From Pseudisothecium myosuroides (taxonomy: Eukaryota; Streptophyta; Bryopsida; Hypnales; Lembophyllaceae), in NCBI GenBank assembly GCA_951799445.1, contig OX637288.1, forward strand, positions 32,219,288 to 32,283,287: 64,000 bases of DNA, written 5' to 3'. Position 1 is the first letter of the stretch, and every line of letters starts with the position of its first letter. Positions 19,734-55,774 of this stretch are shown here, in pieces. The notes beneath the pieces were generated by a model. The model did not search any database. It had not been told where the DNA came from and was given only the letters and a program-made list of their open reading frames with translations. The translations under genes and the position numbers were made by a program.

Positions 19734-20600
19734 TACATCAGAAAAGTTGGGCAAGAATATTTGGATGCCATTTTGACAGCAATCTAACATGGAGTCCACC
19801 TTAGTGTCATTTTGGGATTCACTTTGATAGTGAGGTGGCACCAAATTTCTGTAGTATCATTTTCATGCAAAGTTAGCATTGTCAGCCTCACATCATTGTG
19901 GAGCCATTTTAACATCATTTTGGTGTACATTAATCCAAAGTCAACTTGGCTTTACTTTGAGGGTCAAAATGATGCTAAACTGGACATGCACTATTTATGT
20001 GTTATTTTGATGCCAATTTCACATGAATTATTCTAATATCATTGTTGCAATAACAGAGAAGGAATAATGCAATGTCATGTATATGCCATTTTAGTGCAAT
20101 TTTGTTACCATTTCCATGCCATAGTAATTGAACCATTTGACTATTACTTTCATGTCAATTTACAATGTAGTTTTCCAATGTCAGTTTCATGCTGCTTTAG
20201 TGCAACTCTAGATATGCACTATTCCTTTATCATCTGCACCCCATTTTGTTGTTTTGTTAGAGCATTGTTGACATGCACATTTTCAATGCAATGTTCATGC
20301 CAATTTAGCTAACACTATTTGAATGCCTTTTTGACACTTTTCTAATGTGAACTAATTCTGAATTCATTTTTGGCAAATGTATTGCCATTTTTTCATCATG
20401 ACAATAATATTTTAACTTTATGTGGGCACAATTTTGACATTCCCTTCTTCAATGCCTATTTGGTGCCATTGCACTACAATTATCATATGCACAATTTCAA
20501 TGCCACTTTAAAAGACATGGTAAGTAACAATACTTCAATGTCATTTTCACACTATTTCGACGTTCACATATTTTTTAAGCTATTCTAGAGCCAATTGACT
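19734..20600. repeat. Left subterminal array of degenerate GCCATTTT/ACATCA repeats
   Basis: Words such as GGATGCCATTTTGACAG, GAGCCATTTTAACATCATTT, ATGCCATTTTAGTGCAATTT and AATGCCACTTT recur every 20-80 bp with AATG and CATG between. The same vocabulary fills 55180-55774 and is rare in between. Open frames here (19812-20588) are by-products. Subterminal repeats of this sort bind transposases in CACTA-like elements. Confidence 0.6.
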
Positions 20601-21391
20601 GTCAATTTGGCACCAACATTTTTTTTAAATATTTGAAATAAATGTCATATTGCTGCAAATTATTGTACTTTGATAGATAATTTGCTAATAGTAGCTTACT
20701 GTAGTGCTGTTCTTCATAGGCTTATATCATCTTTTTTGTTGCAGTACATGAAACTCAATGAATAAAGATGGATTTGAATTCACTATAGGAACAACCACAC
20801 AAATTGATATCTAATTATTAAAAGGGCATCTAAAATTAACAATTGCTAGTAAACATAGACTTAGTTAGTAAATAGTTTGTATCACATTGTAATTATATTG
20901 TATGTAGAATTTAGGTGAATGAAGTTTGGATACTAATTAGCATACCTAATGGTAGACAAAGCCACACTACAATACTAATTTCCTTCTGTAACCAAGCACA
21001 AATATAGTGTATATGTAAATTTTCCTTCATTAATGCACCAATGCCAAAGTTGTCATTTGGTACTTGAAATGCATGCACATGACATCTAATAGGATTATAG
21101 AAGTAATACAAACTCTCATGGCACAATTTTTTTGTTCTTCTTCTGCATATACTTTTAAAATTTATGATTGGTATTGCCATCATTATTTACACATGCATAT
21201 TAGTACACATGAATATTCTATGTAAATATTCTATATGAATATAACACATGGTAAAGATGTATCTAGAAAATATCATAAAGAAGCACAACTACAATACAGT
21301 ATAGTTGTTTGACAGGGTTAAAAATATCAATGTTGTACATTGCTTAACACATCTAAATCAATTGTCAATCAAGTCCTTCCAAGAAGACTAC
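20601..21391. other. 3' flank of the Plavaka-like gene
   Basis: An AT-rich stretch between the stop codon and the subterminal array. Frames at 20911-21183 and 21305-21571 are unrecognised; the latter is antisense to the last exon. Confidence 0.5.
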
Positions 21392-24300
21392 CTAGAATTT
21401 CCAACAATTGATGAAGAAGCGTCCTGGTGTAACAAAATGTGGAATGATGTGTACCACTTTCAGAATGGTTTGGATATTTGTTACCACATAACGTGCTCTC
21501 AATTGTGCTTGAGAGTTTCTTCGCATGCTGTTTTGAACATCTCTCAAGGTAGACTGTGTACTCCACCGTAAACATTTGCATTTTGTCAATGCACTCCAAT
21601 CATCATTTTCAATTTCGGTGTATAACTTCAGAAAGCCCATCTGTCTTTGACTTTTTTCACCTCTAGTATTTGATTGGCTACTTGTCTGAAATAGAAGCCG
21701 TATTTGCCCGTAGTAGATTTGTTGAATGCCATCTTCTTCTACTTCAAATGCAACATTGCTAAAGTATGGATTGCTGTGAAAATTAATTGTTGCTCGAGCA
21801 TACATAGGCCAATCTCCATATCTATCTCCAGCTCCAGGAGGAATTGCTAAACATCGAGATAAACCCAAAACTTGTGATAAAGTGACATTCAATTGTACTT
21901 CATAAATTCGTAGAGCTTGAGAAAACTCTTGGGAAATTTCTGGCTGATCCACTAACAATTTTTGGATTGCAACAGAAACTCGAGCTAACTCATGTACTCT
22001 TCCCATACGAAGGTCTCCACTTGTAACCTCTGGTGTTTGGCCAAACTCATCTCTTGTTCTATGCAGCCAAATGCGGTGAAGATTCAAGTAGATGGATGAC
22101 ATAACATTTTGACCTGTCTTCAAAGCCTACATATGCAACATTCACACAAAGTTGTATTAAAAAAATTAGAAACTAATCATTATATTTGTCCACAGTGAAA
22201 TACATGTTTAGCTCTAAATTTCAAAAATCTAAAATAAAATAAAATAAAATAATATATATCACTAGCATCACTATGCTTTTGTTTTAAATTCCTAAACTCA
22301 TACCTTTTTCAATGTTGTGTCATTGACTTCCTTGTGATTTTTTAGTCCTTCTATTTGCTTTGCAACTCTTCTCAAAGACTGCAACCTTTGATTATGTCGC
22401 ACAATTTGAGGCGTTGCATTTCTTCTATTGCTACTCCGATATGCTGTTTTCATAAGAGCAATGTGGAATTGCTCATACATATCTGTTGAATACTCCCATG
22501 GTAATCCAGATCTTTTAATACATTGACTGAAATGGTTCATCATATGAACCTTTGAGGTATTAAATCCAGACCTCTGCCATTGAAACATAGAGCCTTTCAA
22601 AGCTTCGACAGCCCTGAATAAAAAATTACATTCACCTCTTAATACAACACATTACCAAATGAAAATGAACAAAGTTGTATGGATGCTTCAAATGGAGAAT
22701 GCAAAAATAGTTGGAATGTAATAACTAACAATAGTAGACAATGTACCTGCACATTTGTTCATCCATGTGCTTCAGGCTTGTACTTGTGTGAAAAGTGCTT
22801 CGACATGCTACACCATACCAATTCAGAAATAACACTATTGCCGATATAACATTTTCATCAAACAAGCCAACTAGGCATAGAACAATGACCTGCAATATTT
22901 TAACAATGGCATGGCGTTAAGTAGTGATTTCAAAACTTGAACAAAATTCTTAATAAACAATAACAAAGTGTTATTTTGAAAATGCTACCTGCATGACAGC
23001 TCGATGTTCAAATCCAACAAAATTGGCTTGTGAAACAAAATATCCTCCTTGCTCATTGCCAGGAATTCGAAATGATGGAAACCGACAATTTTTCTTGATA
23101 AAGAGGAGTCTTCTATCCAACTCCTTCAATTTGGATTGACGTGGATGAACAGTAGCTAGCTCACGTAGGATGCCAACAATCATTTTAAATATCCCAAGGT
23201 CACTTTGGTGTAAGGTATCAACATGTATTGCAAGATAAGGATTGCCAAGTTTTGTATCACCGCCATTAAATCCCCATAGTGCGCACTTCACACACAAATG
23301 CAAGTACACTTTCAGTTATATATTAAATTCATACATATCCATGTTTTAATTTAAACTAAATCCATGTCCAATAATCCCAATATGAACAAGATCAAAGAAC
23401 TTACTTGAATAGGATTTAGCGACCAAGTTCTTCCAATCTCTGTGGCTAAATTCAGGTGCACTTGTTCCATAACTAGATATATTTCTGCCATCTTTGATTC
23501 TGTGCGGACATGGTGCTGCATGCGCATATTACTAAGATCTTCTTTTCCACACATGCATCTACTATAAGGGGATTGGCAAAGATTGGTGTCATATGTAGCC
23601 GTTACCTTACATGACTCCGGATGATCACATATATACGCAAATAGTAGAGGGTAGACTATTTGTGGCTCTCCTTTGGGATCAAGTAAAGGGAGACCTGTAA
23701 AGCTTGCTTCTTTCAAAGAATGGAAAATAATTTCAAGACCTTGATGTAGATACTCCATCTTCTTGGTGGATGACAAATCTGGATACACCATTAACATTTA
23801 ATAATAAAAATCTTCAAAAATCACAATGATTAGAACTTAGCATTTTGAACTTATAGAAAAAAATTCTTGTAAATAATGAAATACGAAATATAACAATGCA
23901 CTTGAAACAACACATTATCTAAAACATTTTGAGCACATTAACATACTAACTATGCATTACTTACTTGATCCTTGGAAGGTAGGAAGTATAGCAAGCAACT
24001 CATGCCCAGTAGCTTCTCTTTTGTTTTCAAGGGAGATATTTCCAATTGTCATCACCAAAGGATATCCAGAGATTCTTGTATTGTTTGATAAGCAAGTTTG
24101 ATCAGAATAGAAAATCAATGGGGAAATCACAGCTCCCGTGCATTGTAAATCAATGAATTCTTGCATTTGATGCCACCAAGATCCAATATCAGGTGTTGTA
24201 TAAATTCGTTCTCCAATGCCCGATAGGTTAGTGGTTGGCTTCAGTTTGAAATCTCTAGAATTCTCGGCAGCTGAGAATAAAGATGTCAAAACATGAATGG

Positions 24301-25001
24301 GATTTTTAAAGTACAAATTGGCATCACCATTGTCAACCTCTACAAATGTATATTTTGTCCAACCCTGCCACATTGATTGTTAGAAATTCACATTCCACTC
24401 AATCAATCTAAAAAACACAACAATCCCTAAGCAAGAATTAGAAAACTAAAATAATGAAACTGAAAAAACATTTGTTAGGATGCTTGCTTACATCTGCAAT
24501 AGGATATAATTCCTTCTCTTCATACTTTTCAATATCATCCAAACTTCTGATTGTCACAGCTTTGAGATCAAATCGATCATCAAAAAGTAAATCCAGTAAT
24601 GCTTTAATATCTTGTCCAGATAGACCCTGCTTATTTTTACAATTGCGGATAAAGCTTACAAGATGAAAATTAGAATCAAATGGCTGTAAAGGTATATCAT
24701 CGTCCTGCGTAGTTGGCAAGCTTGGAGATCCGGACATATCAGGGTTAAAAGAAGAGCCTCCCATTTGGCACCCTCCATGCAATTGTGTTGGAAGGTCATT
24801 TCTACTGTGTATCTCACTATGACACTCAAGAATCTCAGCTACAAAAGCTTCACCAACCCCACTTGCAATTATAGGGCTAGAAGTAGACAAATTAGCAACT
24901 ATCTGCCTCCCTTGACACCGAGACCTTTGGTGACTAAATAGACCAGCCATCGTTGAAAACCTAAAAAGGCCACATCTTGTGCAGCCCAATGTTTTATCCA
25001 T
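21392..25001 (-). CDS. Plavaka-like transposase, seven exons, 922 aa
   Basis: Exons (minus): 25001-24492, 24364-23965, 23778-23405, 23285-22989, 22889-22747, 22613-22304, 22126-21392. All have GT-AG borders and every phase agrees. The product would cut and re-insert DNA by binding element ends. Exon 1 starts with a C2H2-like finger (CTRCGLFRFSTMAGLFSHQR). Exon 2 has the Plavaka signature: WWHQMQ, PLIFYSDQTCLSNN, YPLVMTIGNIS, ELLAILPTF. Exon 3 has KEASFTGLPLLDP, DHPE and a CMC motif. Exon 4 has HVDTLHQSDLGIFKMIV. Exon 7 ends with YGQIRLLFQ and VVHIIPHF...FINCWKF, like the family C-terminus. Plavaka elements are best known from fungi and are related to CACTA transposons. No internal stop or frameshift is visible. 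The promoter has been moved 18 kb away by the CACTA insertion 32 bp upstream of the ATG. Catalytic residues were not assigned with certainty. Confidence 0.83.
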
Positions 25002-25032
25002 ATTTACCAAAATGAACCAACTCCAACAATTT

Positions 25033-25052
25033 AACTATAAGAAACCTCTGTT
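25033..25052 (+). repeat. Left terminal inverted repeat of the CACTA element
   Basis: AACTATAAGAAACCTCTGTT. The first base and the sixth differ from the right end. The preceding TTT (25030-25032) is the target duplication. Confidence 0.88.
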
Positions 25053-25858
25053 TTAGGTGATGTCAGCAAAGAACAGACCACGTTTTCCAAAACAGATGAA
25101 CGTCAAATGTGAAAGGGCGTTTTGGAATGATATTTTGGAAGATGTTGACGTTGACGTGCTGACACTAGTTGAAAAACATGTCTATGCAGTACATGGCGCT
25201 CTTGTTTTGAGAGACACCCATGGAGATTGAGTTGTGTTTTCTTGGAAATGTCCAACATAGAAACTATTATGTCTCTGATGATGTTCTCAAAGAACATTTT
25301 TCCTAATGTTTTGCACTAAGTCCACTGGTACTTGAAGGTCGCATGTGGTCCAACTACCCAGTCTGTTGTGGTGGGGCAACTATGGAAGCGCGAGTACTGT
25401 CACTGAAAAATCATGGCACTGTCTAGAGAATGATGTTGTACATCATGTTCCATTCAAGCATGCTGTTGTCATGCCATTAAATTTAAAACACCGTTATTTG
25501 TAGTACGCATCATTTTCTCCCAAAACTCTGCAGACTACGAGAAGACTACCTTCACGAGGACAGAATTGGATTTCCTATTCACAGACTCTGTTCGTTCTAC
25601 TAGCGTGCCGTTCGTGTTGGTGCATCTTCAAACTTGTTCTCAACAATGGGATTTCATGTTCATGTTAAATGCGGATTTCAATAGCGTCCATCTAAGACAC
25701 AACATCGTCTTCATTCACATGAAGACAACAGATACACCAAATGCAAGTTCAGAAGCTCATACACGATTTTTGATTGACAGTTAGATTGTACATTACTCTT
25801 TATTCACATGAAAGGTCTACGACAAACAGTTCTGCTCAACGTTTGAGCATCGCGTACT
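25053..25858. other. Left subterminal region of the CACTA element
   Basis: About 0.8 kb of non-coding DNA 3' of the TNP2 stop. GACGTTGACGTGCTGACAC near 25145 recalls ACGTGGC/GACGTGG words near 33050 and 42950. I could not define a regular subterminal repeat. Plus frames at 25566-25956 are unrecognised. Confidence 0.4.
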
Positions 25859-28800
25859 CTACTCACTCTCACTGGATTCGTCTCGAGCTGGTACTTGTTC
25901 AGATGTTCGTATGTGTTTGCCTCCCACGTTGGATGGAGTACGGAGTGGTTCATTGACCACCAGCACTGGTTGCAAACCCACATATTGAGCATCATTTCCA
26001 ACCTGTAGAACATTTGAATGGGTACTTGCATATGATGGTTCTGTCCGCCTGCCTCGAACTTCTGTTTTGCATACCACCTTCCACCCCCGTCGATGTGGAT
26101 CGTCTGAAAAGAAAACTTGTGAACAGTGCAACGGAAATGCAAAGGAATCTGCGTGCACTTTACCATCCATGTGATTGAAATTGGCGACGGTGAAACCATA
26201 TTTATCTTGCACTATGTTTGGGCTCCTAGCATCCCGTGAAGCTTTCACCCAATCACACACCAAGATTGTTGTACAGTGATTTCGGTAGTCCAACTCCAGA
26301 ATCTCTTCGATGTATCCAACATAATCATCGGTTGTCTCAGTTGGTCGTCCATTCAAAACGCCCCACTGCAGCTCTCGTGTGAAAGTGGCCACCACACAGG
26401 AGTCTCTTGTGACTAAGGCAAACTCTGAGCTTCGGACCCGGAAATGCACTCCAAAGCAATACATATGTCTGTGGGATGCGGCTTTACGTTCAGGGGGTTG
26501 ACTGTACTGTACTATATCTGCGTCCAGTTCAACCCCTGCATTCAAAGCGTCGACAACACGAACGCGAAACCAGTCAACGAAGGGTACCAATTCACTCAAA
26601 TGAAGTGGATAACGCATAGGACCTGCTGCATGCTGATGACGGTGTTCCAACCGGAAAGACTCGCGTGCCTCCCATATTCGTGTTTTTTCTGCAATGTATT
26701 CACTGCCACAATGCAAACTTGAACATTAAGAAATGCATTTAGTCATTTCCATGCAAGGTCTGCAGACACCTAACTTTCAATGTTACACTCTAGTTCCTCA
26801 TAGTACTGACGTTGAATCGCTGAACCCTCCTGTTTTCGCTATTCATTCCAAGTTCACTTTGTAGTAACTGCGACATTCTGGGACCCTTTTTTGTTCTCTT
26901 GCAACTTTCTGGCATGATCGCTATGCAGACCTGGTATTGAACTTATACTACCGAGAACACCTGACTCAACTGCAAACTCTCTTCAATCCATTACAATCAT
27001 GACAGGGATGTTGCTCACTCTCGCCATGGCTGCAAACATGCGGCATTGTCCAAAACGAATGCATGCGCGTAGGTACGCATCTGAGATGACATTTTCCGTT
27101 TGCTTGCTTCCGTTCTTGGAAGCACTTCATCATTCATAATCGCATCTTCCATAGCATCCCACACATGATGTGATGTTCCTCTGTACTGCTTCATGTACTC
27201 CGTGCAGAAACCGAGTGTGTCTTCCATTCTATAGCCTTCAGCGATACTCCCTTCCGGATGTGCATATGTGCGTACATAATCTTTTAATGTCTTCATGTAC
27301 CTTTCTATTGGATACATCCATCGACAATGCACTGGACCGCACATGAATAATTGTTGAACTAGATGCACAGGGAGATGTGTCATGACATTAAGAAACGTTG
27401 GTGGGAACTCTTTCTCGAGCATGCACGCCGCAATTACCACATCGTTCATCAGCTCCACTTCGTCTGACATTCGGATTTGTTTTTCACAGAGTTTCTGGAA
27501 AACCCGACACATCTTGATAATGGCTAAGCGCACATTTTCATCCAACACATTCCGAATAGCCACCGGAAGAACCTGTACAGAACGCCAATTACGTTATTCA
27601 ATACTGTATCAGAGAATTAAGACATTCTAATGTAACTCACATATTCGCTGTTTACACTGTCATTCTAATAACGTGAGCTATAAACTGAAAATAGGCACTG
27701 CCACTCCTTCAATGGACGTGTCGCTGTCTTTGTCTTTCTCTATTCTGCTCCATCTGGTCAATCAGACGTACTTATTTAAGCAGTACCGCACTTCAAAATC
27801 ATATTTTCGCACCTGTTGCATCAACACATGGTAGTCGTGTGTCTTCATGTAATGCAATTTGCCGTCCACTAAACGCTTGTGTATAGCGCCCACATAATTA
27901 GTGGGAGTGCGCATACTGCTAACAATGTCCACGAACTCCTTCCGCTCGGCGCTAGTGAAGACATAAGGAGGTTGCGGCATATAGTAATCAGCCTCCTCTA
28001 GTTCCGACGGTTGGAGCCATATTTCTTCACGAATACCAACATCTTCAGCGTCCAATCGACTTCCAGGAGTGTCGTTCATGGCCATTAATGTTTTCACTAT
28101 GTTCTCGCAGATATTCTTCTCACAATGCATAACATCCAGTAAATGCCGAATCAACAAATACTGTCGTCATATTCAATCAATTGAACAAGTTTTGTTAGTC
28201 GTGTGCTGAAAAGGGTTTTCCGACGTCTGCCATACTCAGAATTCTAACTCCAGATACTTGTGCTTTACTTTTGTTCCGTTATAAAAGCTAGGAAAATCCT
28301 TGAACCACCTACTTCGTCCCCTTTTAATAAATATTGACCCTGATCGTACATACAGTGCTACTGAACCTCAAATTATATTACAAGACTCGCAGCAGTACCT
28401 GCCAATATGGAAGTTCGTAGAGGATGCACAGACGTTTCACACCCGTCCAGTGCACAGGTCCGTCCTCCCCGTTCTCCTTTCCTCCTAGATCTAAGTACGA
28501 TTGTCGCCACGCTGCAAAACGTATCACGTCCAACCCTGACACAACTGAGGGACTCGTACCATTTTCCACATTGCCGTCGAACCTCTTGTTCCGGCGATAC
28601 GGATGATGACGTGGCAAATAATGGCGCGCCCCTCCATATATGATCTTCGATCCTCTGGCTCTGCCATTTGGTAGAACATCACCCGTCCTCCCCGAACGCG
28701 CGTGCGTGTCAGGTCCACAAGGCGGACATCCTTTGAAACCTTTGCAACAGACCCCTGATATAAGTCCATATGTGGGGAAATCTGAGATGGTCCAAAGGAC

Positions 28801-30195
28801 CAAACCCCGTAGTGTGAAACCTCGAGAACCCTGAGGACGAGAGAAATCCAACGCACGAACACCAGTCCAGAGCTCTTGTAACTCCCTCATGAGAGGTCTT
28901 AGAAAGACGTCCATGTTCAATGCCGTTGGTGAATGCTTCCCAGAAATCAACAAACACAAAGATATGAAGAACTTCTTCGTGACTAACCACGGTTCAAAAT
29001 TGTAACAAAGCATGAGCACAGGCCACGTGGACCAATTAGTATTGCTCAATTTGAAGGGGTTCACTCCATCAAGTGATAATGCGAAACGCATGTTCCTGGC
29101 GTCAACTCCAAAATTCCCAAACACAGGATGACTGTTGGTGTGCTTCCAAGCTGGACTGTCTACCACCGACCGCATTATACCGTCAGAACTGATGTGTTTT
29201 GTATAGCCAGTCAACATACCCGCTATTTCAGCGGACCTCCACATGCGCTTCAATCGTGGTATCAGTGGAAAGTGACGGAGAACTTTCGCTGGAATTGTAG
29301 AACTGCCTTCAATCCACCGGGACTTTTTGCACTTGGGACACTTATTTAATGCTGCATGTCCTTCTTCGAATAGAACACATCCATCCGGACATGCATGCAC
29401 ACTGTTATAGTTCAATCCTAATTTTCTTATAGTACGTCTCGCACCGTAATGCGTGCCGGGCAGTTTGTTGTCCTTTGGAAGCAAATCCGTCGACAAGTAC
29501 CGCAATAACTCGTCCGTGAATTTGTTGCTCACACGGAATACAGTGCACATATTCATGATGATGATCGTCGCTGACACCACACTACACTTAGACCCGATGT
29601 ACAATGGAGTGGTTGCTTGTTCATACAATTCTTCTAAACCGTCCACGGTGTCCATACCCTCATCTTCATTATCCACCGTCTCTATAGTGTCTCCTACTTC
29701 CACGTGCAATGCATCACCTCTATCGAACGCTTCCATAACTTGCCGATGTACTTCATGAAATTCATCTAGTTCCGGACACGTTTTGGCATTCGCGTCAGCA
29801 TCCATGGCGCCACCGACATTTGCGTCACGGTTGACAGTGCCATCCTCCTGGGCAACTGAACCATCAACAATATCGTTGTCATACGCTACGTCTTCAACCC
29901 ACAAACCGTGACTTGGGTACCCGTCAAGCGGATCACCTCCTATCATGGACTTCACAAGAAACGGATCTCTACCGACTGCGACATGGTGTTTCCGTATGAC
30001 GTCAATTGTCTTTCGTTGTCCTCCACGACAATCTCGACACGGACATCGAAATGCTCGAACATCACGCTCAGTTGCCACACGCAACTCAGTTTGCATGATC
30101 AAATCTCCCACTGGTATATGGCGTAGAGCTCGTCCATCGGTACACATACGTATGTGTGCACGTTGATGTTCAACGTTGGAATTCATGTTTTCCAC
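25859..30195 (-). CDS. CACTA TNP2 transposase (Transposase_21, DUF4218, DUF4216), four exons, 1180 aa
   Basis: Exons (minus): 30195-28399, 28160-27813, 27572-27019, 26702-25859; GT-AG borders and phases (0, 0, 2) fit. TNP2 is the catalytic transposase of EnSpm/CACTA elements and acts in the nucleus on the element ends. Domains in order: a Cys-rich N-terminus (CPCRDCRGG); the Transposase_21 region with CPDGCVLFEEG...CPKC, NFEPWL, FLRPLMRELQELW and GVCCKGFKGCPPCG; LLDVMHCEKNICENI at the start of exon 2; DUF4218 with GPVHCRWMYPIERYMKTLK in exon 3; DUF4216 with ILVCDWVKASRD...YGFTVANFN in exon 4. The length suits the family. No stop or frameshift interrupts the model. The ATG at 30195 opens the frame and is followed by a plausible N-terminus. 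The C-terminal 25 residues are acidic and serine-rich. Confidence 0.92.
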
Positions 30196-33100
30196 TATAG
30201 TCTCTGTTCAGAATAGATTATACCGAGTCAAAGCACCTGTGTACCGGGTGTTGCACATGCTGGACGACGATGACGTCAGTATGTACAGAGAAAACAATTG
30301 ATGACACCTCTATCAAGCTGCTACGTACAAACAGCCGTGTTCGAAATCGAAGCCACACTGTGGAAACTGAGATGTCCAAACTGTTTCATAGGTGTGCTTA
30401 CCTCTTCATCGTCCACGTCATGGCCTCATCGTACTTCTGCAATACCGCCGTTGCTATGCATAGGGATCGACAATGTAGTGGCATGGGGAATATCAGCTCT
30501 TCAGTTTCGAAAATAAAGTCTTCTGCCACGAACTGTGAACTCCTTTATTCGATGATTCTGTAAAATAATAGCATACAATATTGTTTTGAACATACTGCAA
30601 CACTTTCAACACTGTATCGCCACATCACAGTGGAGGACTAAAACAGTGGGATTTGATTTTTTAGGATACTCTCATTCTAATCCAAGGAATTACGCATCAA
30701 GAAGAAAACTGAACAGGAAAACTTCATGATAAGACTAGGTAACCCTTAGTGGTCATGCAGCAGCCTCATTTAACAGGTTTTAGAAGAGATGGTGCACCGG
30801 CTACCGGAAAAAACCATGCTCTTCTAAGAGGAAAAGTATTACTAGCACGCTTTATACAACTGAACAGCCGTCTACTGTCTGTGTAGTACAAAACGGAGAT
30901 CCAGGGAAAACATAGTCCTTCATTTACATGTGTGCACATCCATTGTTTCCAAATGTGCTAAAGCCTGACCGCTAAGCCAATCGTCGTACTCGCTTTCCCA
31001 GCTGTCGAAGGGAAATACGTCATTGTAAAACCACGACATGCAATACAGGTGGTTGTTGTAAACCTCAGTAAGTGTGTCGGGCACAAACTTCTTGGAACTC
31101 ACTAGACCAAGATCATACCAAGAAGCATGCTCCATGTACTGCAGCAACAGTTGCTCCAAGTACTGTTCATGCAGCCTATCGTACTCTTCGAACGGGTACA
31201 TGCATTCGCTTTCTGAAGCACCGCTCTCTACTGGCAGTGGAGCTGTGTCTTCAGATGGTGAGGAAAGAGATTCATACGGTTCGAAAGGGATGAACCCTAA
31301 AGACAGCTCAGACTCATAGCTAGAGGGCAAACTTAGACTCAGTTCAGATGCAGTGGATGGAGAGTTGAAAGGTTCTAACAAGAAAGAGGAACTGCTGACG
31401 GACGACTCCATGTCGGAGATGTGCTCCATACCTTGTGATTCGAACTCCATGCAGAGCAGCAAAGCAGACAACGTGAATTCCGTGCGTACTTCTATTGAAC
31501 CACAATAGTGTCAACATGTGCACTTAAAGAGGAATGCCTTAAACGCGTGCATCAATGCAAAGGTGCTCCAGAGTTGGCTCCTGTTGCACACACATCCAAC
31601 GTCAAATCATATTCCCGTGGGCAGAGAATGCATTCTAAGAGACAGCAGGCACATATTGATGCAAAATGTATGAGTGACTACAGACGTTGATGTGGTATAA
31701 CCTCGGAGTTTGGAAACACTAGGGCGAGAAGACAACGGCTTCGTGAACTTGTCATTTTCTGTTGCACTGGAATATTTAGTTCCAGTGTTCCACAAACACA
31801 AAGTCTTTTGCATGTGGATGTTTGTGTGTTTCAATTCACTGAACTTCAATGCAACCAGTGTGTTGCTATGTAAAAAATTGAGTTCTGAATTACAAAATTC
31901 AAACTGATGTTTCTAAAGAGTTGTCTTTCAAAGTCAATTGCATCATGAAATTCCAGAAAGTTGTACTGCATATTAGTGACGCTCATGCTATACATTCCCC
32001 CCTACATGTCCAATGCACCAAAATAGGTTCATTGCAATATTTTGAAGTCAAATTACACCAAACCAAAGTGCTATTTCAAGTACTTGATATTTTTGAGAAG
32101 TTCGTCTTCAAGTCTAATATGAGTACCAGAAATTCGATCTTAAAAATAAATGACAGTGTTCTTTCTATTCAAGTTCTTGAACCAGAGTACCCATTGCCGT
32201 CTTCGCGACCTGTACTGTTTAGAGCTTCTGGAAATGAGCCTCAAATACAGTACAGTTTGGAGGAAATAACACATTTGCTTTTCCTATAAAATAAAATGTG
32301 GTATTGTTTACATGAAGCCATGAATAGATGTGAATTAAACAAGTGAGGCCCTTGAACCTCATACATATTTGGTCACCAACTTCGAGGAGCCTCACTCATG
32401 TACAGAAGACTGACAATTTCCTGCATTTCTATAAACTTGATGATCCAACTTTTAACTCTGTCACTCCATAAGTGATGTAGATGTGTTTTCTTTTCCTATG
32501 AAATCTCTGACATGTCTACTTAGAATTCGTACGGTTACAATTCCCCAGAAAATGATACAACTTCTCTAAATGTTGGCATTTTGTGAAGTTCAGAGCGAAA
32601 TCCCAGAAGCCCGGAACAGGCCTTGGGCATTTAGGGCTTCACTACAATAACTCGTTATATTTAACCGAAGGTTCAAAACAGTTGATGTCATCTACACTTG
32701 TTCTATTCTTTGTTCGTACCTCGGAAAACATAGCGGTGTCGACATCTCCAAACGGATTTCGTGGATGCTGTTAGACTTTGTCTGGAATTCATAATTCTTT
32801 CAGCAAATGCTATAAGATTGCACAGGTGATGCTCAGCGGTACAGTGCTGAAAGAGGTTGACCCAAATTGATTTCACTAACTCTTTTTTGGGGACTCAATT
32901 CAGTAAGAATTCCCGAGCCACCACATTCTGAGTTTTAATCATATTGCATATTTGAACTGAAAAAGTGAGAATTCGCTGCAGTTATTTACTATGCCTCTGA
33001 CGACGAAAGAAAAAGATCTAGCAGAAGAGAACGACCAAAGCTGCTACGTGTGTCGACGTGGCAGCGTATTCTGGAAGTCACAAAGCCACTAAAGTATTGC

Positions 33101-33511
33101 AGCGCAGTATTTTGCATTTCCTGAATAAGTGAAGTCGTTCAATAAAAAAAAAAATATATATTGAGTTGGATTAGTTTAGTTCTGTACAATTGGAGAGGGT
33201 AGAAGCTGACCTGAGGCGCCGTCAGCACAAGGACTGGAACACGTCGTTGACACCGCCAGTTCCGACACGTGTCGCGTCACGGCGAAGGAACCGGACAGAG
33301 TTCCTTGTTTTGGGAAACGAAAGGTGTTTCCTCTGTGACGGTGGACCCAGTGCACTCTGACGTTTTCTTCCTGTCCTCTCTGCGTTCGACATGTGGAGAT
33401 GTCCTCCGAATCAGGCGACGTCTCAGCAGTTGGGTGCGCTTTGTCCAGTCTTTGCTTGAAACCCTAGCAACGACGCAGTGAGTGGAGAGTGAGTTTTAGC
33501 AGGTGAACGGA
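30196..33511. other. Central divergent promoter region of the CACTA element
   Basis: The 3.3 kb between the two divergent starts must hold both promoters. It contains the acidic minus-strand frame at 30920-31471, an unrecognised 122-codon plus frame at 31921-32289, and near 32608 a remnant resembling the end of the TTAA element at 17576. ACGTGTGTCGACGTGGCAG near 33045 resembles TGGGTCGACGTGGCGCTGAC near 42947. No TATA box was assigned. Confidence 0.45.
30920..31471 (-). CDS. Acidic Ser/Glu/Tyr-rich protein of unknown function inside the CACTA element
   Basis: An intron-free frame of 183 codons between the two transposase genes, on the TNP2 strand and upstream of it. The composition is unusual: a serine-rich N-terminal half (MESSVSSSSFLLEPFNSPS) with repeated ELSLSLPSS/ELSLGFIPFEPYESL segments, then a highly acidic, aromatic part (MYPFEEYDRLHEQYLEQLLL, WESEYDDWLSGQAL). 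There is no signal peptide or membrane segment. Acidic, aromatic, serine-rich stretches can be activation domains, but that is speculation. It may be an accessory protein of the element, a captured host exon, or a chance frame; its length and biased composition argue mildly for real coding. A Met at residue 9 (31447) is an alternative start. Confidence 0.4.
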   Translation of the reverse strand: MSALLLCMEFESQGMEHISDMESSVSSSSFLLEPFNSPSTASELSLSLPSSYESELSLGFIPFEPYESLSSPSEDTAPLPVESGASESECMYPFEEYDRLHEQYLEQLLLQYMEHASWYDLGLVSSKKFVPDTLTEVYNNHLYCMSWFYNDVFPFDSWESEYDDWLSGQALAHLETMDVHTCK

Positions 33512-43162: not shown

Positions 43163-43182
43163 AACAGAGGTTTCTTCTAGTG
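43163..43182 (-). repeat. Right terminal inverted repeat of the CACTA element
   Basis: AACAGAGGTTTCTTCTAGTG, the inverse of CACTAGAAGAAACCTCTGTT. TTT at 43183-43185 completes the target duplication. Confidence 0.9.
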
Positions 43183-44867
43183 TTTTTTAATGGTTACAAC
43201 ACTTCAAATGACTTTGTACAAGTTCTAATAAGTAAGTAAGTCACCTGCATTCAGAAGGTTGGCAGCAGCTATCTTACATTGAACTTAGCAAAACCCTAAT
43301 TTGTTGGTTCTATCATGCCGCGATAAAACCTATTGAATTTAATGTAGACCCTTAAATTCTCAAATTCTGCAATAGCAACAATACAAATGCAACACTCATG
43401 AAGTAGACCCTTCTTGCTCCCAAGGCATTAGAATGAAGGCCATCCAAAAAAATATACCCTAAAATGTGTAAATTTCACCTTTGGATAAAATAAAAACCTT
43501 TCACAAGCACAGCCGCACAACAACAAAAACAACACAAAATCTCAAAACAATCCTTATTGATGGTGCCATTTCCACTAACTTTGTACAATGACATGACAAT
43601 GCCAAGCACAAATGAGCAAGCTGCCAAACACAAAGAGTTTTAGAGAAATGGAAACTGAACATCCTTCAATTAACAACTCTAAGTTGACAATTGAGCAGGA
43701 CAAAATAATGCGATATACGTATTCATTCCGTCTCTCTTTGAAAATGTTTGAGATAGGCCAGTACACCTATTCCCATCCATTTACCGCATCCTGTCACTAT
43801 GTAGCAAAGGCACACATTTTCTTTTTAGAATGTATTACATTTGTACATGATGACAGAATGGGGTACACGGATGGGAATGGGTGTGCCTACCTTGGTCAAT
43901 ATATGCCATTCAGTTCCCTTCAATGGAGGTAAAAAAGCATGTAAAGTTGTCTATTACTCTCAATTTCAAAAATTAAGAACATTAATAGAAATAAAAAATA
44001 TTTATTGTTTACTAGACCATTTAGTTTCAATTTCACTTTAGAAATTAACAATTTCACATTCTTCCAAAAGGTTGTAGTATACTACTTTTATCTTTCATTG
44101 AGTATCACCTTCTACTTTATAATTTAATAAAATAAGTATGAAGTTTTTTGGTTAAAATTTTTGACATATGTTTTCAAACCATTTTTCAACATATTGACTA
44201 AAATTTATAAGTTATAGGACATGCATGTTTTTTCCTTCAAATGTTAAAAGACAAGAAACTTCACTTTTTGAAAAGGCTACATTTTGAAGTTTAGTGAAGT
44301 TGAATTTACAATTAGTGGAGATATTATTCATTCTAAAATTTTGGGGCAATGCACTTGAATAAGTTAACCAAAGGATCCTATGATTGTGGATTGTTACTAA
44401 ATAAATATTGATGAGAATTTTGACCTCGCTTTGGAGTAAATATTTTGAAGTAGATATGAAGAAATTCAAATATAAATTCAAAAAATTCAAAAAATATTAT
44501 CTAAAAATATTAATTATTTTTTGAAGGTTGTATAGTTGGATGCCTACATAAAAACATTTGAACCATTCAATTCCAAATATTGAGGAAAACGTTACAAGGG
44601 GTTTAATTTTGTAGGTAATGAAGGTAGAAAAAGCACATGAAGTTGTCTTTTACTTTCAATTTCAAAAATTAAGAACAGAAATAAAAATAGAAAATACTTT
44701 TTATTTAACTCAAGTTAACTTATTGACTTTCCTCCCGCATGTGGACTTTCATACCTGGGGTGAATTGACCCCCTTGCTTGGCTGAGCAAGAGATGAATAG
44801 AGGCTGGGCTGAATGAACCGACGGTCTCATTCATCTCTACAACCAGGTCATCCACTGGCAGCACGCA
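43183..44867. other. Right arm of the outer element next to the CACTA insertion
   Basis: If the nesting model is right, the first few hundred bases are the displaced upstream region of the Plavaka-like gene. Further on, an 80-bp segment at about 43928-44010 (GTAAAAAAGCATGTAAAGTT) recurs, diverged, at 44623-44705. A 106-codon plus frame (43612-43932) is unrecognised. No gene is called. Confidence 0.45.
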
Positions 44868-45095
44868 ATGGAACAGAAATCATCCAATCGGATGAACAGA
44901 GAATCAAAAAAGTTCATCCGGTGTCTCTCGCGATACGGGTCCCAACCACCTCCCACCGTCCGATCTCTAATGTGCATTGATTTGGCATTAGGGCGTGAGG
45001 TTGGGAGTGGGATGATCGCAGGAGGGGGCGCAATTGTGGCGCCCGCTTCCGGTCGTCGTCGTCGTCGAGCCATCCTACTCTCGTAAGTGTTTGGG
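44760..45095. other. GC-rich island in AT-rich DNA
   Basis: About 330 bp rich in CG dinucleotides, with a short GTC run at 45051-45066 (GTCGTCGTCGTCGTCG). It carries the tentative first exon of the plus-strand gene. The minus strand is also open here (78 codons, start MARRRRRPEAG). The plus reading is preferred because it ends at a consensus donor. Confidence 0.5.
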
Positions 45096-48000
45096 AGGTG
45101 TATTGTAGGAGGGGAAGTTCAAGAAGGTGCGCTTTGCATTCTTTTCCTTCTTGCTGATCAGAGCTCTTAATCATCTTTACTATAATATTGTGGAATACAT
45201 GTTTAAACGGGCAGGGTTTAGGGTTTAGAGCTTATTGAGGTTATGGGACGGTTTGATGGTAAGATTCAAGGTTTAGTATTTTTAACGAAGGGAAAGGTTT
45301 GGTGATCTTTGTTAGGTACTTGGAGCTTGGTGTTTCCTCCTACTGTAGTTTTGTAATGCTAGAAATCTTCGCATCAAAGCGTCCATCTTCTCTTGTCTCT
45401 CCCTGTAACGTTGTGAAACACCGTATTGGTTCACTTTTTAGATTGTAGAAAACATAAACATTATGTATTAAATTCCAAGTCCGGAAGTGTTAGGACAATG
45501 GATTAAGCCATGATTACAATTTAGAGAGTCTTTCGTGAGATAGGAATAGGAACTCTAGGAATTTAGGTTGAAAATCTAGAAATGCAATTAGAAGAAAGTA
45601 AAGGGAAAAATCTAGGGAAAAAAATGGGAAGTTAAAACTAAAAAGACTTTAAGCAAGATTTGGTAAAATAACCAAATTAGGCAAATGGTAAAACATTTAG
45701 AAAACTAAAGCAAAGTCCTACAAGTTGGAATGAAACTAAAATTAACTTGAAAACCACAAAAAATAATAAATATGAAAAAACACAAAACAAGTTAGTAAAC
45801 TTAAAACTACTACTAGAATACTAAGATAGTGTTAGAAACACTAAAATAGGGTCCAAACAGTAAAATTGGGGAAAAAACAGTAATTTAGGGGGGGTTTGCA
45901 CTAAACTAGCGCAGTTTTCACTAATTTAGTGCATTTTATAGTAATTTAGCGATTTTAACAATAAATTGGAGTGGGATGAATGTGATTAGGGAAATTAGTC
46001 GTTAGGGTGTTGGATATAGGCGAAATTAGGGTTCCAAGCTCTCTCTTTCTCAACTTGTGTGTGTATGTGTGTTTTGAGAGCTTGGTGGAGAAATGGCAAT
46101 GAAAAATGGAGAAAAAGTGTCAGAAACATCATGGCAATGAGTTAGGATCAAAGGTAGGACAATTTGTCGAGTAGGTTTTCACCATTTCATGAAGGGAGAT
46201 GGGTGAAAAAGCTAAATTACCAAGGTCAGATGGAAAGTTGGTTTTGAGGGAAGAAGGAGAAGTTAGGGTTTGGAAGACTTGGAAGAACTACCAGCTTTGG
46301 CGAGCTGCTGCGGACAATTGCCTCAAGATTTGGAGCTGAAAATTGAAGGGGAGCTGCGCCTTCAAGTCAGCTTTTGATGAAGACCAATCTTGCCCAATTT
46401 GGAGCTCGGACATGGTGGTGATGGTGGATTTAGGCGGAAGGTCCACTGCCGCAGGATTTTGAAGCTGCGACTTTGGACAGCAATTGCGGCAAATTGGTGA
46501 AGCGCAGGGAGCTGAATTTTGGAGGAGAACGAGGAAAAGAAGTTAGCTTTCCAAAAAGACCGTTCTTGCGCCATTTGGAGCTCAGATGAATCCACGGCAG
46601 ACATTTTTGCCAGTAGAAGGTCTGCTGCCCTAGGAAGTAGCCCAATTTGAGGTTTTTGATGGAACTTTGCCCAATTCTTATTGAATGCTTGCAGTTTTCA
46701 TTGCATTGAATCATGGAAAGAGTTTGTGAATGTATGTGTTGCTAAATTGGATGTTGAAAGATGCATGGGAGTGAATTTTAGGGTTGGGGCACATGTGGAA
46801 GAGCTGCCCTAATTGAATCAAAATTAGGGTTTGAGGGATCAATTGATTGACATGAAAAGCACATTTTGAAGGTTAGAGAAGAAAATTCCTTAACATTGCA
46901 TGAAAAACAGGGTTTCTAGGGTTTTAGGGTTTCTATGGATTGTGTCAATACTGAGAATCTTGTATACTGATTGTGTTCTTCAATGCTTGAGTTTGTTGAT
47001 TTTTGTTTTATTCTAATCAATGGGTGCATGTTTTAATAGGCTTGGACAGGATTCTCACCAGCAATTTGATTGATCCTACAGGGGGAGTTGTTCTTCCTCA
47101 AGCTGCACTACAGGTTCTCCATCCTTAGGTAACTTCTTTTCCTTAATTTGCAATGTTGTTGTATTGTAGTTTATGGTTTAAAGTATATTTGTTTAGGGTT
47201 TAGGTCATTATTCATGACTGATCAAGTTGTGCGCATCAAGCCAATTGGGCCTAATGATGTCGTCTTGATTCAGTAGTGATTCATGAATCAAGTATTAGAA
47301 AATAATTGAACATTGTATATTTGATTCTATTGTTCAATGCTTGAGTTTGTTGATTTTTGTTTTATTCTAATCAATGGGTGTATGTTTTATTAGGTTTTGG
47401 TAGGATTCTAGCTAGCAATTGATTGATCCCATAGGCAAAGTTGTCCCCCCTAAAGTTGCACTACAGGTTCTCCATCCTTAGGTAACTTCTTTTCCTTAAT
47501 TTGCAATGTTGTTGTATTGTAGTTTATGGTTTAAAGTATATTTGTTTAGGGTTTAGGTCATTATTCATGACTGATCAAGTTGTGCGCATCAGGCCAATTG
47601 GGCCTAATGATGTCGTCTTGATTCAGTAGTGATTCATGAATCAAGTATTAGAAAATAATTGAACATTGTATATTTGATTCTATTGTTCAATGCTTGAGTT
47701 TGTTGATTTTTGTTTTATTCTAATCAATGGGTGTATGTTTTATTAGGTTTTGGTAGGATTCTAGTTAGCAATTGATTGATCCCATCGGCAAAGTTGTCCC
47801 CCTTAAAGTTGCACTATGGGTTTATCATCCTTGGGCAACTTCTCTTCCTTGGACAACTTTTGTGCAAGGTATATATTTTTATTTATTTTTGAATGTATTA
47901 TTATACTGAAAAGAGCTTGATTTTGATTTTTGATTTTTTTATGATATCAATAAAGATGGTTTCTTTGTAATTTTACAGGATCTTTCAAATGCCTAGAAGG

Positions 48001-51000
48001 GCAGACTTTCAAGGGGGAAAGGTTCGGAATCCAGGAAGGAGGGAAAGATTAGCAAGGCTAAGAAAGATGAGGAAATCAAGAGAGTGTTAGAGAGTTTGGG
48101 ACCTGAGAACTTTGAGTTCATTTTTGCAAAAAAATGTGTAGATGATGATTTGCAAGAAGAATTCATGAAATCATTTCCAAATGATTATACTCCGATCTCT
48201 TACGGTCAAGTTGCAGTGAAGGATGTAGACACATGGGAAATAGTAGCTCTGATTAGATTTTCTCCTTTCACTGACATAAAACCTAAGGAGATGAGTGAGT
48301 TTCAGAATTTGACATCCGCTTTTGTTGGGCTATCCAAAAGGGGCAACAAAATTACGGAAAACGCAAGCCACAAGGAAGGGAGTGGAAACATGTATGCATT
48401 TGGTTGGAGAGGGGGTTCAGATGCTAATTTAACCATGGGGAGGTACATGCCTAATGGTCCAACCAAGAAATCACCAACAAACTTGGAGAAGTGGAGACAG
48501 GATCAAGAACAAACCATTGCTTGGATTGGTGGTATTTTTCATTATAGTATATGCTTACAAAACTTTTATTTGTAAATTTGGTTTTGTGATTTTGTATGTA
48601 AATTTTTTTTTAGTGTTTAGCATATTACATGTTGTAAACATATATTTGTTTACAATATTATCATTCATAATTTTGGTTTTGTGCTTTTGTATGTTAATTT
48701 TTTGTAAGTATTTCAAATATTACACATTGTACAGGTTGTATTGTAAAGAAAGTTTATGATTTGTTAATGAAACTTTAATGTTATTTTGTATTTAGAAACA
48801 TTCATACTACTAAAATCACAACAACCTCTATATTATCACAATTCAATTTTGAATAATATTATAAAAATTCAATTGCTTTTATAATAGCCATAGGATACTT
48901 TCTATTACATATTATGTATTCTTTTTGTGAAATATTTGAAAATCAAATAAAAACTTTTAAAAAAATTTCAAAGAAACTTTTTAGACAACAAAACTATAGA
49001 TAAATTCCATGTTTTTTTAAAATGTGATATTAAAGAATAAGGAAGCACCAACCACTAGCATTGTTCTACATATTCAAATGTGAAGATTCTACTTGCATTG
49101 TTTATTTGATTAATTTATTCTTATTGCAATGTTTTCATCTTTGTAAAAGTTATTTTATAAAAATTATGATACAAAGATTTTTTTTAATTACTTTATATTA
49201 CACTATATAAATTTTTTCAAAGAATATTGCATGAGGATGTCAATATTTTCATTTAAAAATTAGTATACGTACTTTGTTTATTTACATTCTATCACATGAA
49301 AAATGGATGAAAGTAATATATTTAATTCTTAGCAAAGCAAGCGCCAATCGCTAGTATTTAGAAAATATAACATCAAGGTTTATAAATATGTTGATTTTAA
49401 GGAATTTCATAGAATATTCAAAGGAAAAATAAATAAACACAAAAAAAAATTTATTCACTTTTATCTATAAAAAGTTTATTATTTGGAATGTTAAATTAAA
49501 AAATTTATATTGGAAAGTTTAAGGTATTATGGTATTATAAAATTCATAATTATCTTTTGTTTTAAATTCCATATCGAAAATTATTAAACAATTATAATGT
49601 TTAGAATGTCGGTATGTTAATTATATAAATAGAATATAAAAGATAAATTTCATATCAAAGATTCTTAAATGACACTTGAATTATGGATTTTACAATTTCC
49701 TACTTTATAATTTAAAAGTAAGGATTTAAATTTTTTAATTTATACATCAATCTAAAAAAACTTTATAAATTTCACTATAATTTTAAATGATATATTTAGG
49801 TAATCATACCCATTAATCAACAAAAATTACATAATCAATAATTATTTTTTATCTATGTACTCAAAAGCTATAAAAAATAATTAGTTTGTTTAGTTTTAAT
49901 TCTAGACAAATTGAAATCTGAATTTTAAAAATCCTGAATGAATATTCCATTTGTAATAATTGTAGGTAAAACAAGATTCTCCAAAACTTTCACATCCCTT
50001 ATCCAAATGAGATGAATCAAAGATTTCTATGTAGACAAAAATATAATCAATGGCAAAAGTAATCCATTGTAAAAAAATTTAATTTTTGTGAAATTATTTT
50101 CCTACTTGGGCTCCCTTATTTTAAGCTTATTTGGACTAAACTTTTCTTTGAGATACCAATTGAAAGAAAAGTCATATTCCCACAACTCTAAATAATTATA
50201 TTTTCAAAAAAAGTTTCAAAAAATAACAACCAAAGTTGAGACTAAAGGTACCTGCCTGAATCCAATTGGTGATATTTTAGTTGTTATTTACAATTGCAAC
50301 TTTTAGTTTAATTTGTATATTCAAATGAAAATTACATTCATTGTAAAAACATATATTGTATTATTTATTATAAAGATCCTACAATTTACACATTTAGAGG
50401 ATTGTAGTTGGCTCTTCAATCTTTGTTTTGTAATTTTTTTACAATAATAAGCTAGTAAGAAAGGTTGTATGCATTATTTTGAATGTAATTTTTTTTCCAA
50501 ACTATAAATAATTGCTACAATATGAAGGCTGTAAACAAATAATAAAAATAAGTGCTATGCATTAAAATGTAATATATTACTGTGATGTGGAGTTTTATTA
50601 TTATTTTTAGAATCTGAAATTACAAGTCCTCTAAAATATATTCTAAATATAATGTCTCTATTAGGTAATCTATAGTGGTAGTCATTCAAACTTCAATACA
50701 ACTACAATACTTCTTGTATATAATACTTCTTGTATACAATACAAGTAGTACTAATGAATTTTTATACGGTAGACGTGTCAAAAGGTTACTTGTGTACGAT
50801 AAGAAGGTTGGCGGCTGTAATAAATACATTGTCACAAAGCTTCAGACTAAAGGTTTTCTGGCTAAGAAGGTCCAACTTCTATCGTTTGTTTGTGGATTTC
50901 TTTGTGCCGGATTGCCGGCATTCTTCTTGCACAATTGTGTAGTTCATTTGCGCGGTAAGTCTAAGTGCCTTGTGTGTAATTCAACACTTGTTTTAGTACA

Positions 51001-53738: not shown

Positions 53739-55007
53739 ACCTTGATAGTTGTATTGTTTGGAACAAGATTGAAATTTTATTTTGCTTTAACTTTACTTTG
53801 TAGTTTGCAAATTTATAAACTAGGCATATTACTGTAAGTTTTATGAAGCCTCTTATGCAGACCTTCTATATTGCACAATTTCTTATAGAAAAGTTCTTTT
53901 CATGAAGGTGTGAGAAGTATTCATGTTGATTATGCATTAGATGTGTCTATATATTTTGTGTATTAGAATAGCCAATATGTATTGTACATTGTTCTATTCC
54001 ACTTCATCACAAATTTATGATTTTTTCATGGGCCCAATTTGCTTTTGCACAAAAAATCAACAACTTGCATATAAATGAGTGTAAGCGGCTTGGAGCAATC
54101 TTTTCTACAAATCAGGTTCTTCAACTGAATGCCACATCTTTTTTGATTTGATTATGTATAGTTAGTATTTCCAAAATGTAAGAACTAAATTATATTGCCA
54201 ATTGGTATGTTTTGTTACTTGCATTGAAGATGTATTCTCTCTAATCCCTTTGCTATGTACTAAATATAATATTAAGCTTGTATATTATTGCATATTAAAA
54301 ATGTTAAATGATCATGCCATATTCCTGACCTTTCATTTTTCTTTGAAGTAAAGTGTTAAATGGCTCTACTATAACTAATGTGTGTATTGTTGAATGGAAC
54401 AGACTTCAACTATTTGAGAGCTTATTTGGGTGTTTTATGTATCCTACATTAGGTCAGGTATGAAATACCTAACCTATTGGGCTTAACTTGATAATTTCTT
54501 TAAAATTCTCTTTACCAGAAATTGAAATCCTTGTTCAGTTGTTTACTCATTTAATATGTTTTTTACTTCTTTCCAAACAATAATAGGGCCATCATTGATT
54601 GGATTGTTGTATGTGTTGTGTATGTTGGTACTATAGACTAATAAATTATCAATTTGTTGCAGGTGATCTCAAAAGCAGACTAGGAAGTGTTAGGAATTGA
54701 TGGTGGTACATACACAAGTAGATGTTCTTCTCTATTTTCAGTGTGACTAGGGATCCAAAGTTGTATCAAATTTAGAAGGAGCTAGTATTTTTAACATGAT
54801 GTTCAACCTTTGAAAAGTGACCTGCCATTCATATGAATTATAGTGTTTTATTGTGACAATGAAGAGAACTGAATAAGTTTAGCTTTATAGGCCCTAAAGT
54901 TATAGTTGTAAATATTTAGGTATTGAATACATATAGGCATCTACTAGGTATTGAACACTATGTAGTGTATATAATATATATACTATACAAACTTGAATAA
55001 ATGATTT
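53739..55007. other. 3' flank of the outer-element gene
   Basis: AT-rich, non-coding, between the stop codon and the right subterminal array. No gene seen. Confidence 0.5.
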
Positions 55008-55774
55008 TTGGCACTCAATATTGAATTTATTTATTTATATATATCAAATTTCCTATTACCATCACTATTAGAAGGTGTATTGATGGTGCATTGTTTACTG
55101 CTCTATTTGTACCACTATAGCATTAGCATTGAATGTTTTCTAGCATTCTTTTGTATAATAATTCAACACCAAAAGTTCAAGATGTTGGTATATCCCATTT
55201 TAATGCAGTTCTGGCATCATTTCAACATCAAAAGCATATGACAATATGGTGTTAGTGCTGCAATTACATGTTGCTATTATATTGCCATTTTATAGCTATT
55301 TTAGCATCAAAAATACATTAATGAATGCCATTTTACTGAAAATATAGTTTGATTTTAGCACAACTGTGCTGCCATTTTAACATCAAAAGCCATCATATTA
55401 GAGTTCTCATCAATCTAAGATTGTTATATTTTAGCACCAACTTAGTATAATTGTGGAGCCATTTTATCATTGAAATATATGGCGTACTGTGGTAGTCAGA
55501 ATTGCATGTTGTCATATCAGAGCACAAGTGGTACAATTTTTACATCAAAGTTACCTAGCATTAGTCTAAACCTATTTTTGCATCAACAGAATGTCTAGTC
55601 ATTTGAGTGCCATTTTTGCATTAGAATGATAATCCCTTTTAGAATCCAGCTTGTATTAACCCAACACCCATTAACATGGCATCAGATTGACATTAATCTC
55701 CACATTAACTTAACAATATGTAGTTTTGATGTCAATATGGCACCCTATTCACATGCCCTGAAGTTCCTGATGTA
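55008..55774. repeat. Right subterminal array of degenerate GCCATTTT/ACATCA repeats
   Basis: TTGCCATTTTATAGC, ATGCCATTTTACTG, CTGCCATTTTAACATCAAAA, GAGCCATTTTATCATTG and GTGCCATTTTTGCATTAG occur along the stretch, and the last copy (GATGTCAATATGGCACC) is inverted. It mirrors the left array at 19734-20600 and ends at the proposed right terminus. Confidence 0.6.

Follow-up and report, generated by a model that had tools for sequence, protein, structure and literature searches.

Introduction

Among the described systems, the closest to the element treated here are the transposons of the PlavakaB type, which, in the accessible portion of Kojima (2025, PMC12730594), have CATCA..TGATG ends and produce duplications of 2-3 bp. 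In that same portion, Plavaka elements that carry a TET gene (TET-positive) are characterised in two Agaricales fungi, Agaricus bisporus and Gymnopus confluens, with earlier implied associations cited for five fungi, and the presence of HxE instead of HxD is given as the hallmark of the PE-type TET/JBP, reported for Plavaka elements. The present study concerns a stretch of 64,000 nucleotides on contig OX637288.1 (the window), in which a PlavakaB-type transposon, in a host that is likely to be a plant, harbours a nested CACTA element together with part of a TET-like dioxygenase gene that is complete in sister copies of the same family.

As far as the accessible portion of the source goes, this transposon resembles the TET-positive PlavakaB of A. 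bisporus and G. confluens in its Plavaka transposase, its ends, its short duplications, and the presence of an internal TET/JBP gene, whereas both of the TET genes found here present a candidate HxD (HKD in the first, TET-1, and HTD in the second, TET-2) rather than the PE-type HxE. It also differs from the fungal elements in its plant-like host, in the second TET/JBP-like type found in a sister subfamily, in its accessory gene, and in its length of approximately 18-23 kb. The fungal Kyakuja, Zisupton, and Dileera elements (KDZ) are likewise DNA transposons with TET/JBP genes, in genomes rich in TET genes, but the transposase here is of the Plavaka type and the duplications have 2 bp, in comparison with 7 in Kyakuja and 8 in Zisupton (PMC12730594, same portion).

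Anti-silencing genes on plant transposons are known from the VANDAL elements with VANC (PMC10398659, PMC5735166, accessible portions), although VANC is a sequence-specific anti-silencing protein and not a dioxygenase, and the equivalent role would be a predicted one in the present case. Plavaka-type transposases have also been reported outside the fungi, in the giant repeats of Amoebidium (PMC11244446) and, as EnSpm-Plavaka, in the green alga Auxenochlorella (PMC12633428), neither of which is a land plant, and the accessible portions of these sources mention no TET gene with them. The green lineage does have a TET homologue, the CMD1 (5-methylcytosine-modifying enzyme 1) of Chlamydomonas, to which TET-2 has a weak match around the HxD, and TET-1 has none. 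No TET-positive transposon, or Plavaka with TET, was found for plants in the literature searched, which mostly excludes subscription papers. Plants remove 5-methylcytosine by means of glycosylases and are not known to use TET enzymes for this.

A single outer transposon and its copies

The outer element occupies positions 19736-55772 and is flanked on both sides by a TA target-site duplication. It begins on the left with CATCAGAAAAGTTGGG (CATCAG...) and finishes on the right with ...CTGATG, i.e., it has the CATCA..TGATG termini of PlavakaB. The first-pass annotation had placed the inverted ends at 19734 and 55774, and while the ends themselves are real, these positions include the duplicated TA. 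The first and last 60 bases are identical at 37 of 60 positions in an ungapped alignment, which makes them a degenerate terminal inverted repeat, given that 20,000 pairs of 60-mers drawn at random from the terminal 1 kb on each side had a mean of 16.9 matches (sd 3.7) and a maximum of 35. The subterminal vocabulary proposed to be common to both ends was also recovered, with 22 10-mers shared in the direct orientation, whereas 200 shuffles gave 4.8 ± 2.9 and never more than 13; in the inverted orientation, the single 10-mer shared between the ends was not above chance (3.6 expected).

The 501 bases at either end of the outer element were used as queries against the genome (388 Mb, 222 contigs), which returned at least 41 matches for each end, the window's own copy included. 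All but two of the 41 listed left-end matches begin within the first five bases of the query, and 17 other left ends have at least 96% identity. A correctly oriented right end lies 17.8-23.3 kb away from 14 of these 17, and none was found among the matches listed for the remaining three (C9:14756941, C7:23751848, and C7:23850826). Ten of the 17 close copies were fetched, at 20 kb each, the other seven being known from their ends alone, and L047 and L048 are the only elements fetched from the left-end matches below 96%.

In all ten of the fetched copies, the left arm runs to position 25032 and then continues at 43183, with one TTT, i.e., these are empty sites of the inner 18 kb, and both arms are thus a single outer transposon of 17,884 bp without the inner insertion. 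This direct junction is what the first-pass annotation had suggested looking for, and its proposal of one outer element of approximately 17.9 kb stands, given that the two arms occur together in the copies and that the ends of these copies coincide with 19736 and 55772. As three of the ten have common flanks, the empty sites are not all independent. When the 14 paired copies and the window are grouped by identical flanks, nine distinct insertions are obtained, seven of which present a 2-bp duplication (TA, TT, TT, TA, AT, TA, and CT), and the related short element L048 also has a TA duplication.

The copies of the 23-kb subfamily have 11.1 kb in place of the stretch that matches 44166-49951 of the window. 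Seven copies of approximately 23.2 kb (C7:735591, C7:16418223, C4:25348585, C3:27647971, C3:2308961, C2:21995099, and C2:21868423) share an identical stretch of 12 bases on either flank and therefore look like one larger unit, containing the 23-kb element, that was apparently amplified to seven locations. On the other hand, L047 and L048 match the window only over approximately 1.2 kb at the left end and, at the right end, over 1.3-1.5 kb split into two pieces. Given that only these ends are shared and that no long gene model was found in either of their interiors, which are unrelated, both look non-autonomous. The outer unit is most probably a recently mobile PlavakaB-type transposon of approximately 18 kb with three genes.

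The Plavaka transposase

The spliced transposase model matches the Pfam profile Plavaka (PF18759) over positions 41-318 of 325, with an expectation value (E) of 3.3e-35 and 122.3 bits against a cut-off of 26.3, which bears out the Plavaka-like assignment of the first-pass annotation. This domain, the CATCA..TGATG ends, and the 2-bp duplications all fit PlavakaB. The seven modelled exons (24492-25001, 23965-24364, 23405-23778, 22989-23285, 22747-22889, 22304-22613, and 21485-22126, with the borders being those of the model) contain neither stops nor indels in the window copy, and the same holds for the three 23-kb copies that were fetched. A check for the C(2)C and H(3-4)H motifs, which in PlavakaB lie between the catalytic residues, found as candidates CSRC, in all ten of the other fetched copies, and HMMNH further on.

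The window reads YSRC at this site, with tyrosine in the place of cysteine, the CACTA element was inserted approximately 30 bp upstream from the modelled start of the transposase, and the TET gene of the window is halved, so the outer element cannot be described as apparently intact, as it had been.

The TET-like genes and the accessory gene

The window exon of TET-1 matches the first part of the profile of the Tet-like 2OG-Fe(II) dioxygenase (PF20515), with E 2.2e-7 and 31.5 bits (cut-off 27). The rest of the gene, of approximately 607 bp, is present in C8:13927227 and C3:36652101, and is missing from the window and from C6:26311612. The frame is complete in C8:13927227 (L018:297-1412), where 372 codons cover positions 2-211 of the 211 in the profile (E 2.1e-41). 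A candidate HxD is found in NAIHKDNNYNSYAYGIW and a candidate distal histidine in FHTILPS, and the HKD and FH lie at plausible places in all five long TET-1 copies, both assignments having been made by eye. A complete TET gene was also sought within the window, in the plus-strand frames of 48576-52138 with the stops read as X, which yielded no more of it. Modelling the structure of the TET exon gave a mean predicted local distance difference test (pLDDT) score of only 36.7, and this model was rejected. No solved relative of TET-1 was found by sequence.

Nine matches to PF20515 lie within copies of the outer element, seven of them over positions 2-211 (five without an in-frame stop) and two truncated, in the window and in C6:26311612. 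Among the five stop-free matches, C4:20030126 has a stop further upstream and a long terminal repeat (LTR) element inside, and the two TET-1 copies of C7 carry one base more than that of C8. A Ty3/gypsy-like retrotransposon frame, named by eye, lies inside the TET-1 of C4:20020087 (L012). Direct repeats of approximately 353 and 338 bp flank the TET gene in the window (46960-47850 and 50871-51550).

The seven 23-kb copies have no match to PF20515. The 23-kb subfamily has instead, in the same place as TET-1, a second gene, TET-2, with three exons, two motifs rich in cysteine and histidine, and, at its end, a dioxygenase-like part (IHTD, LWH). The full TET-2 model of 410 amino acids is found in two of the three fetched copies, which are 99.97% identical to each other, and the third has a shorter model. 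The closest solved relative is CMD1, with a weak match (phmmer E 0.0042) that covers part of the domain.

The accessory gene has no Pfam family over the cut-off, and its frame is open in two copies, that of the window and C4:20020087. The first-pass annotation had described a minus-strand transposase and a plus-strand partner gene in each layer, and while the strands are correct in both, the outer layer has two plus-strand genes, one of a TET-like dioxygenase and one accessory.

TET genes in the rest of the genome

A scan of the genome with PF20515 returned 114 matches above the cut-off, a count that includes fragments of the same gene, and none in 14 control genomes, a control that says little about other plants. 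At least 140 bits were reached by 32 of the matches, 20 of which are without an in-frame stop, and 105 of the 114, many of them open, lie outside the mapped copies of the outer element. A second TET group is formed by the open frames L049:2556-3599 (-) and L050:4513-5637 (-), which are 38-40% identical to TET-1. L050 scores 161.3 bits, a value also obtained on contigs C34, C40, and C165. The flanks of L049 and L050 hold repeats that are found again at other loci, and flanking repeats resemble positions 15062-15982 of the window (76-78%). As judged from these profile matches, this is a genome-wide expansion of TET genes in a plant-like genome. Scans of viral contigs with the TET exon, the Plavaka exon, the accessory exon, the full TET-1, and the TET-2 exon found no relatives.

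Selection and the methylation footprint

The ratios of non-synonymous to synonymous substitution (dN/dS) were estimated by the Nei-Gojobori method, without a transition-bias model. The transposase had ratios of 0.28-0.48 in 30 pairs of an 18-kb type copy with a C7-type or 23-kb copy, and of 0.59-0.70 between the C7-type and 23-kb groups. Between the subfamilies, the full TET-1 had ratios of 0.36-0.38 (six pairs, in effect three, since TET-1 does not differ between the two C7 copies), and the accessory gene, 0.20-0.33 (five pairs).

Transitions were counted in six copies of the 18-kb type, including the window, against the near-unanimous majority. They affected 40 of 1,644 copy-sites at CG, 91 of 2,975 at CHG, and 175 of 26,189 at CHH (H being A, C, or T), in comparison with 65 of 62,907 at A/T, i.e., 24, 31, and approximately six times the A/T rate, respectively, and the transversions differ little. 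Methylation at CG plus CHG is the plant pattern. This excess indicates that C-to-T decay has left a plant-type methylation footprint and that the copies were targets of methylation, and it also points to a plant host. The arms of the outer element have a CpG observed/expected ratio of 0.34, the inner CACTA one of 0.90, and the two flanks ratios of 0.59 and 0.81.

The nested CACTA element

The inner element of 18,150 bp (25033-43182) has its own ends and a TTT duplication on both sides, as the first-pass annotation had read it. Its 20-base ends, AACTATAAGAAACCTCTGTT and CACTAGAAGAAACCTCTGTT, differ by two mismatches, with the right end reading CACTA and the left end, AACTA. The transposase is of the TNP2 type, with matches to Transposase_21 (PF02992, E 1.2e-55) and DUF4218 (PF13960, E 7.2e-34), and a DUF4216-like part (PF13952) whose 30.1 bits are below the cut-off of 30.6. 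The TNP2 transposase, the CACTA ends, and the 3-bp duplication place this element in CACTA/EnSpm, and its plus-strand partner region has no Pfam family above the cut-off. An inverted similarity of 72-75%, over 296 and 218 nt, links the left flank of the outer element (17563-18206) with the middle of the inner CACTA (31999-32644).

Explanations weighed

The presence of a Plavaka transposase and a TET gene on one 18-kb element suggests that this transposon carries its own tool against silencing by host DNA methylation. The transposase, read leftwards, would recognise the CATCA..TGATG ends, and cut and paste transposition would leave the 2-bp duplications, while the other two genes, TET-like dioxygenase and accessory, run in the opposite direction, rightwards, out of the common centre. 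The dioxygenase would most likely oxidise 5-methylcytosine on new or silenced copies, which may reopen their promoters and weaken the methylation silencing of the host, whereas the accessory gene, which is constrained between subfamilies, may bind DNA or assist transposition. The copy in the window would be a derivative that lost the second half of the dioxygenase and received the CACTA just upstream of the transposase. Overall, a three-gene PlavakaB-type transposon with a TET-like dioxygenase as its anti-silencing tool, and with the window copy as a derivative, is considered probable.

A number of observations weigh against this explanation. Two of the nine distinct insertions (C2:26684878 and the 23-kb set) have no target duplication, and stops or indels interrupt the modelled transposase in all seven 18-kb-type and C7-type copies that were fetched, while the three stop-free 23-kb copies have common flanks and thus represent one amplified locus. 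The accessory gene has stops or indels in the other four of the six aligned copies. TET-2 fails the cut-off of Tet_JBP (PF12851, E 0.0016, 18.1 bits against 34.9) and, given this and the weak match to CMD1, it is labelled only as TET/JBP-like. The dN/dS within the 18-kb group ranges from 0.24 to 1.77, near or above 1 in several pairs, as expected from copies that decay after insertion. In addition, neither the accessory gene nor transposase residues 1-305, the only probes used, have a relative in the flanks of L049 and L050 (2.4-4.5 kb on each side), so that the TET genes of this genome are not confined to the outer element.

The dioxygenase could also be passive cargo, made up of captured fragments of host or foreign genes with no role in transposition. 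The window copy and C6:26311612 carry a deletion of the TET region but have kept both ends, and PF20515 finds nothing in the full-length C2:26684878; an element can thus be present without a TET gene in cis, although the identical deletion at two different places would fit help in trans. The interiors of the non-autonomous relatives are unrelated, the cargo region differs between the subfamilies, and the first-half TET exon has a dN/dS of 0.54-0.67 between groups (ten pairs, in effect five), a weaker constraint than that of the whole frame. On the other hand, the 0.36-0.38 of the full TET-1 between lineages and the stop-free match over 2-211 in five of the nine family copies with a match both argue against mere cargo, and two different TET/JBP-like types at one position would be improbable under random capture, so that this explanation is considered unlikely. 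A slightly less likely one is that the dioxygenase makes another base modification, such as a CMD1-like 5-glyceryl-methylcytosine or a modification of thymine, which would mark or protect the transposon DNA rather than demethylate it. CMD1 is the nearest solved relative of TET-2, and the accessible portion of Kojima (2025, PMC12730594) leaves further activities open for diverged types, but the CMD1 match is weak and partial, and TET-1 has no such relative.

Contamination of a plant assembly by fungal or other DNA, or a non-plant host, might be suspected given that, in the literature searched, fungi were the only hosts for which Plavaka elements with TET were found to be described. This is very improbable, however, because left ends are found on all of C1-C10 of the 388-Mb assembly, contigs of 26-55 Mb (lengths of all but C5), the decay is focused on CHG, and a CACTA with TNP2 and DUF4218 is nested inside. 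It was also considered that the left arm, with Plavaka, and the right arm, with TET and the accessory gene, might be two unrelated elements lying side by side, as the wide gap between them in the window would allow, and this is refuted by the 25032-43183 junction in the fetched copies and the spacing of the paired ends, which leave it with practically no probability.

A plant-like transposon family that was recently amplified and has complete TET genes would make it possible to test directly whether 5-methylcytosine oxidation in plants was brought, and is used, by transposons. It would also become testable whether the capture of TET by Plavaka was independent in fungi and plants, or whether these elements moved between them. 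The broader proposal of a land-plant lineage with interchangeable, working TET/JBP anti-silencing enzymes on its transposons, with a chemistry of oxidised methylcytosine, an arms race parallel to that of the fungi, and a genome-wide expansion of TET, is more tentative, and its chances are put at a little under even.

Coordinates and neighbouring genes

Table 1. Features of the outer and nested elements, in positions of the window.
Feature	Positions	Strand	Basis
Outer target-site duplication TA, left	19734..19735		Flank inspection
Outer left terminus (CATCAG...), degenerate terminal inverted repeat	19736..19795	+	37/60 match to right terminus; 39/41 left-end matches begin at 19734-19738
Plavaka-type transposase	21485..25001	-	PF18759 on spliced model; 3' end uncertain
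Inner target-site duplication TTT, left	25030..25032		Ends and empty sites
Nested CACTA element	25033..43182		Missing from 10/10 other fetched copies
Inner TNP2 transposase gene (Transposase_21, DUF4218, DUF4216-like)	25859..31450	-	Pfam and gene model
Inner plus-strand partner region	35930..39293	+	Open frames 36467-37120 and 37328-39349
Inner target-site duplication TTT, right	43183..43185		Ends and empty sites
First half of TET-1, Tet-like 2OG-Fe(II) dioxygenase	47997..48537	+	PF20515 positions 2-84 of 211
Junction, approximately 607 bp of TET-1 missing in window copy	48529..48537	+	Comparison with other copies
Accessory gene, 414 amino acids	52138..53738	+	Modelled exons 52138-52345, 52473-52834, 52972-53314, 53407-53738; open in window
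Outer right terminus (...CTGATG)	55713..55772	-	Terminus match, right-end matches in genome
Outer target-site duplication TA, right	55773..55774		Flank inspection

Rfam had no match in the window. Outside the outer unit, an element-like gene with DUF7869 (PF25273, E 7.7e-44) lies on the minus strand at 56950-60110, with a two-exon model of 996 amino acids. On the same strand, a ubiquitin-family frame (18891-19235, PF00240, E 1.7e-16) is located approximately 500 bp from the outer insertion, and an F-box gene (3892-5229, PF00646, E 1.2e-7) has an open frame of 445 amino acids.

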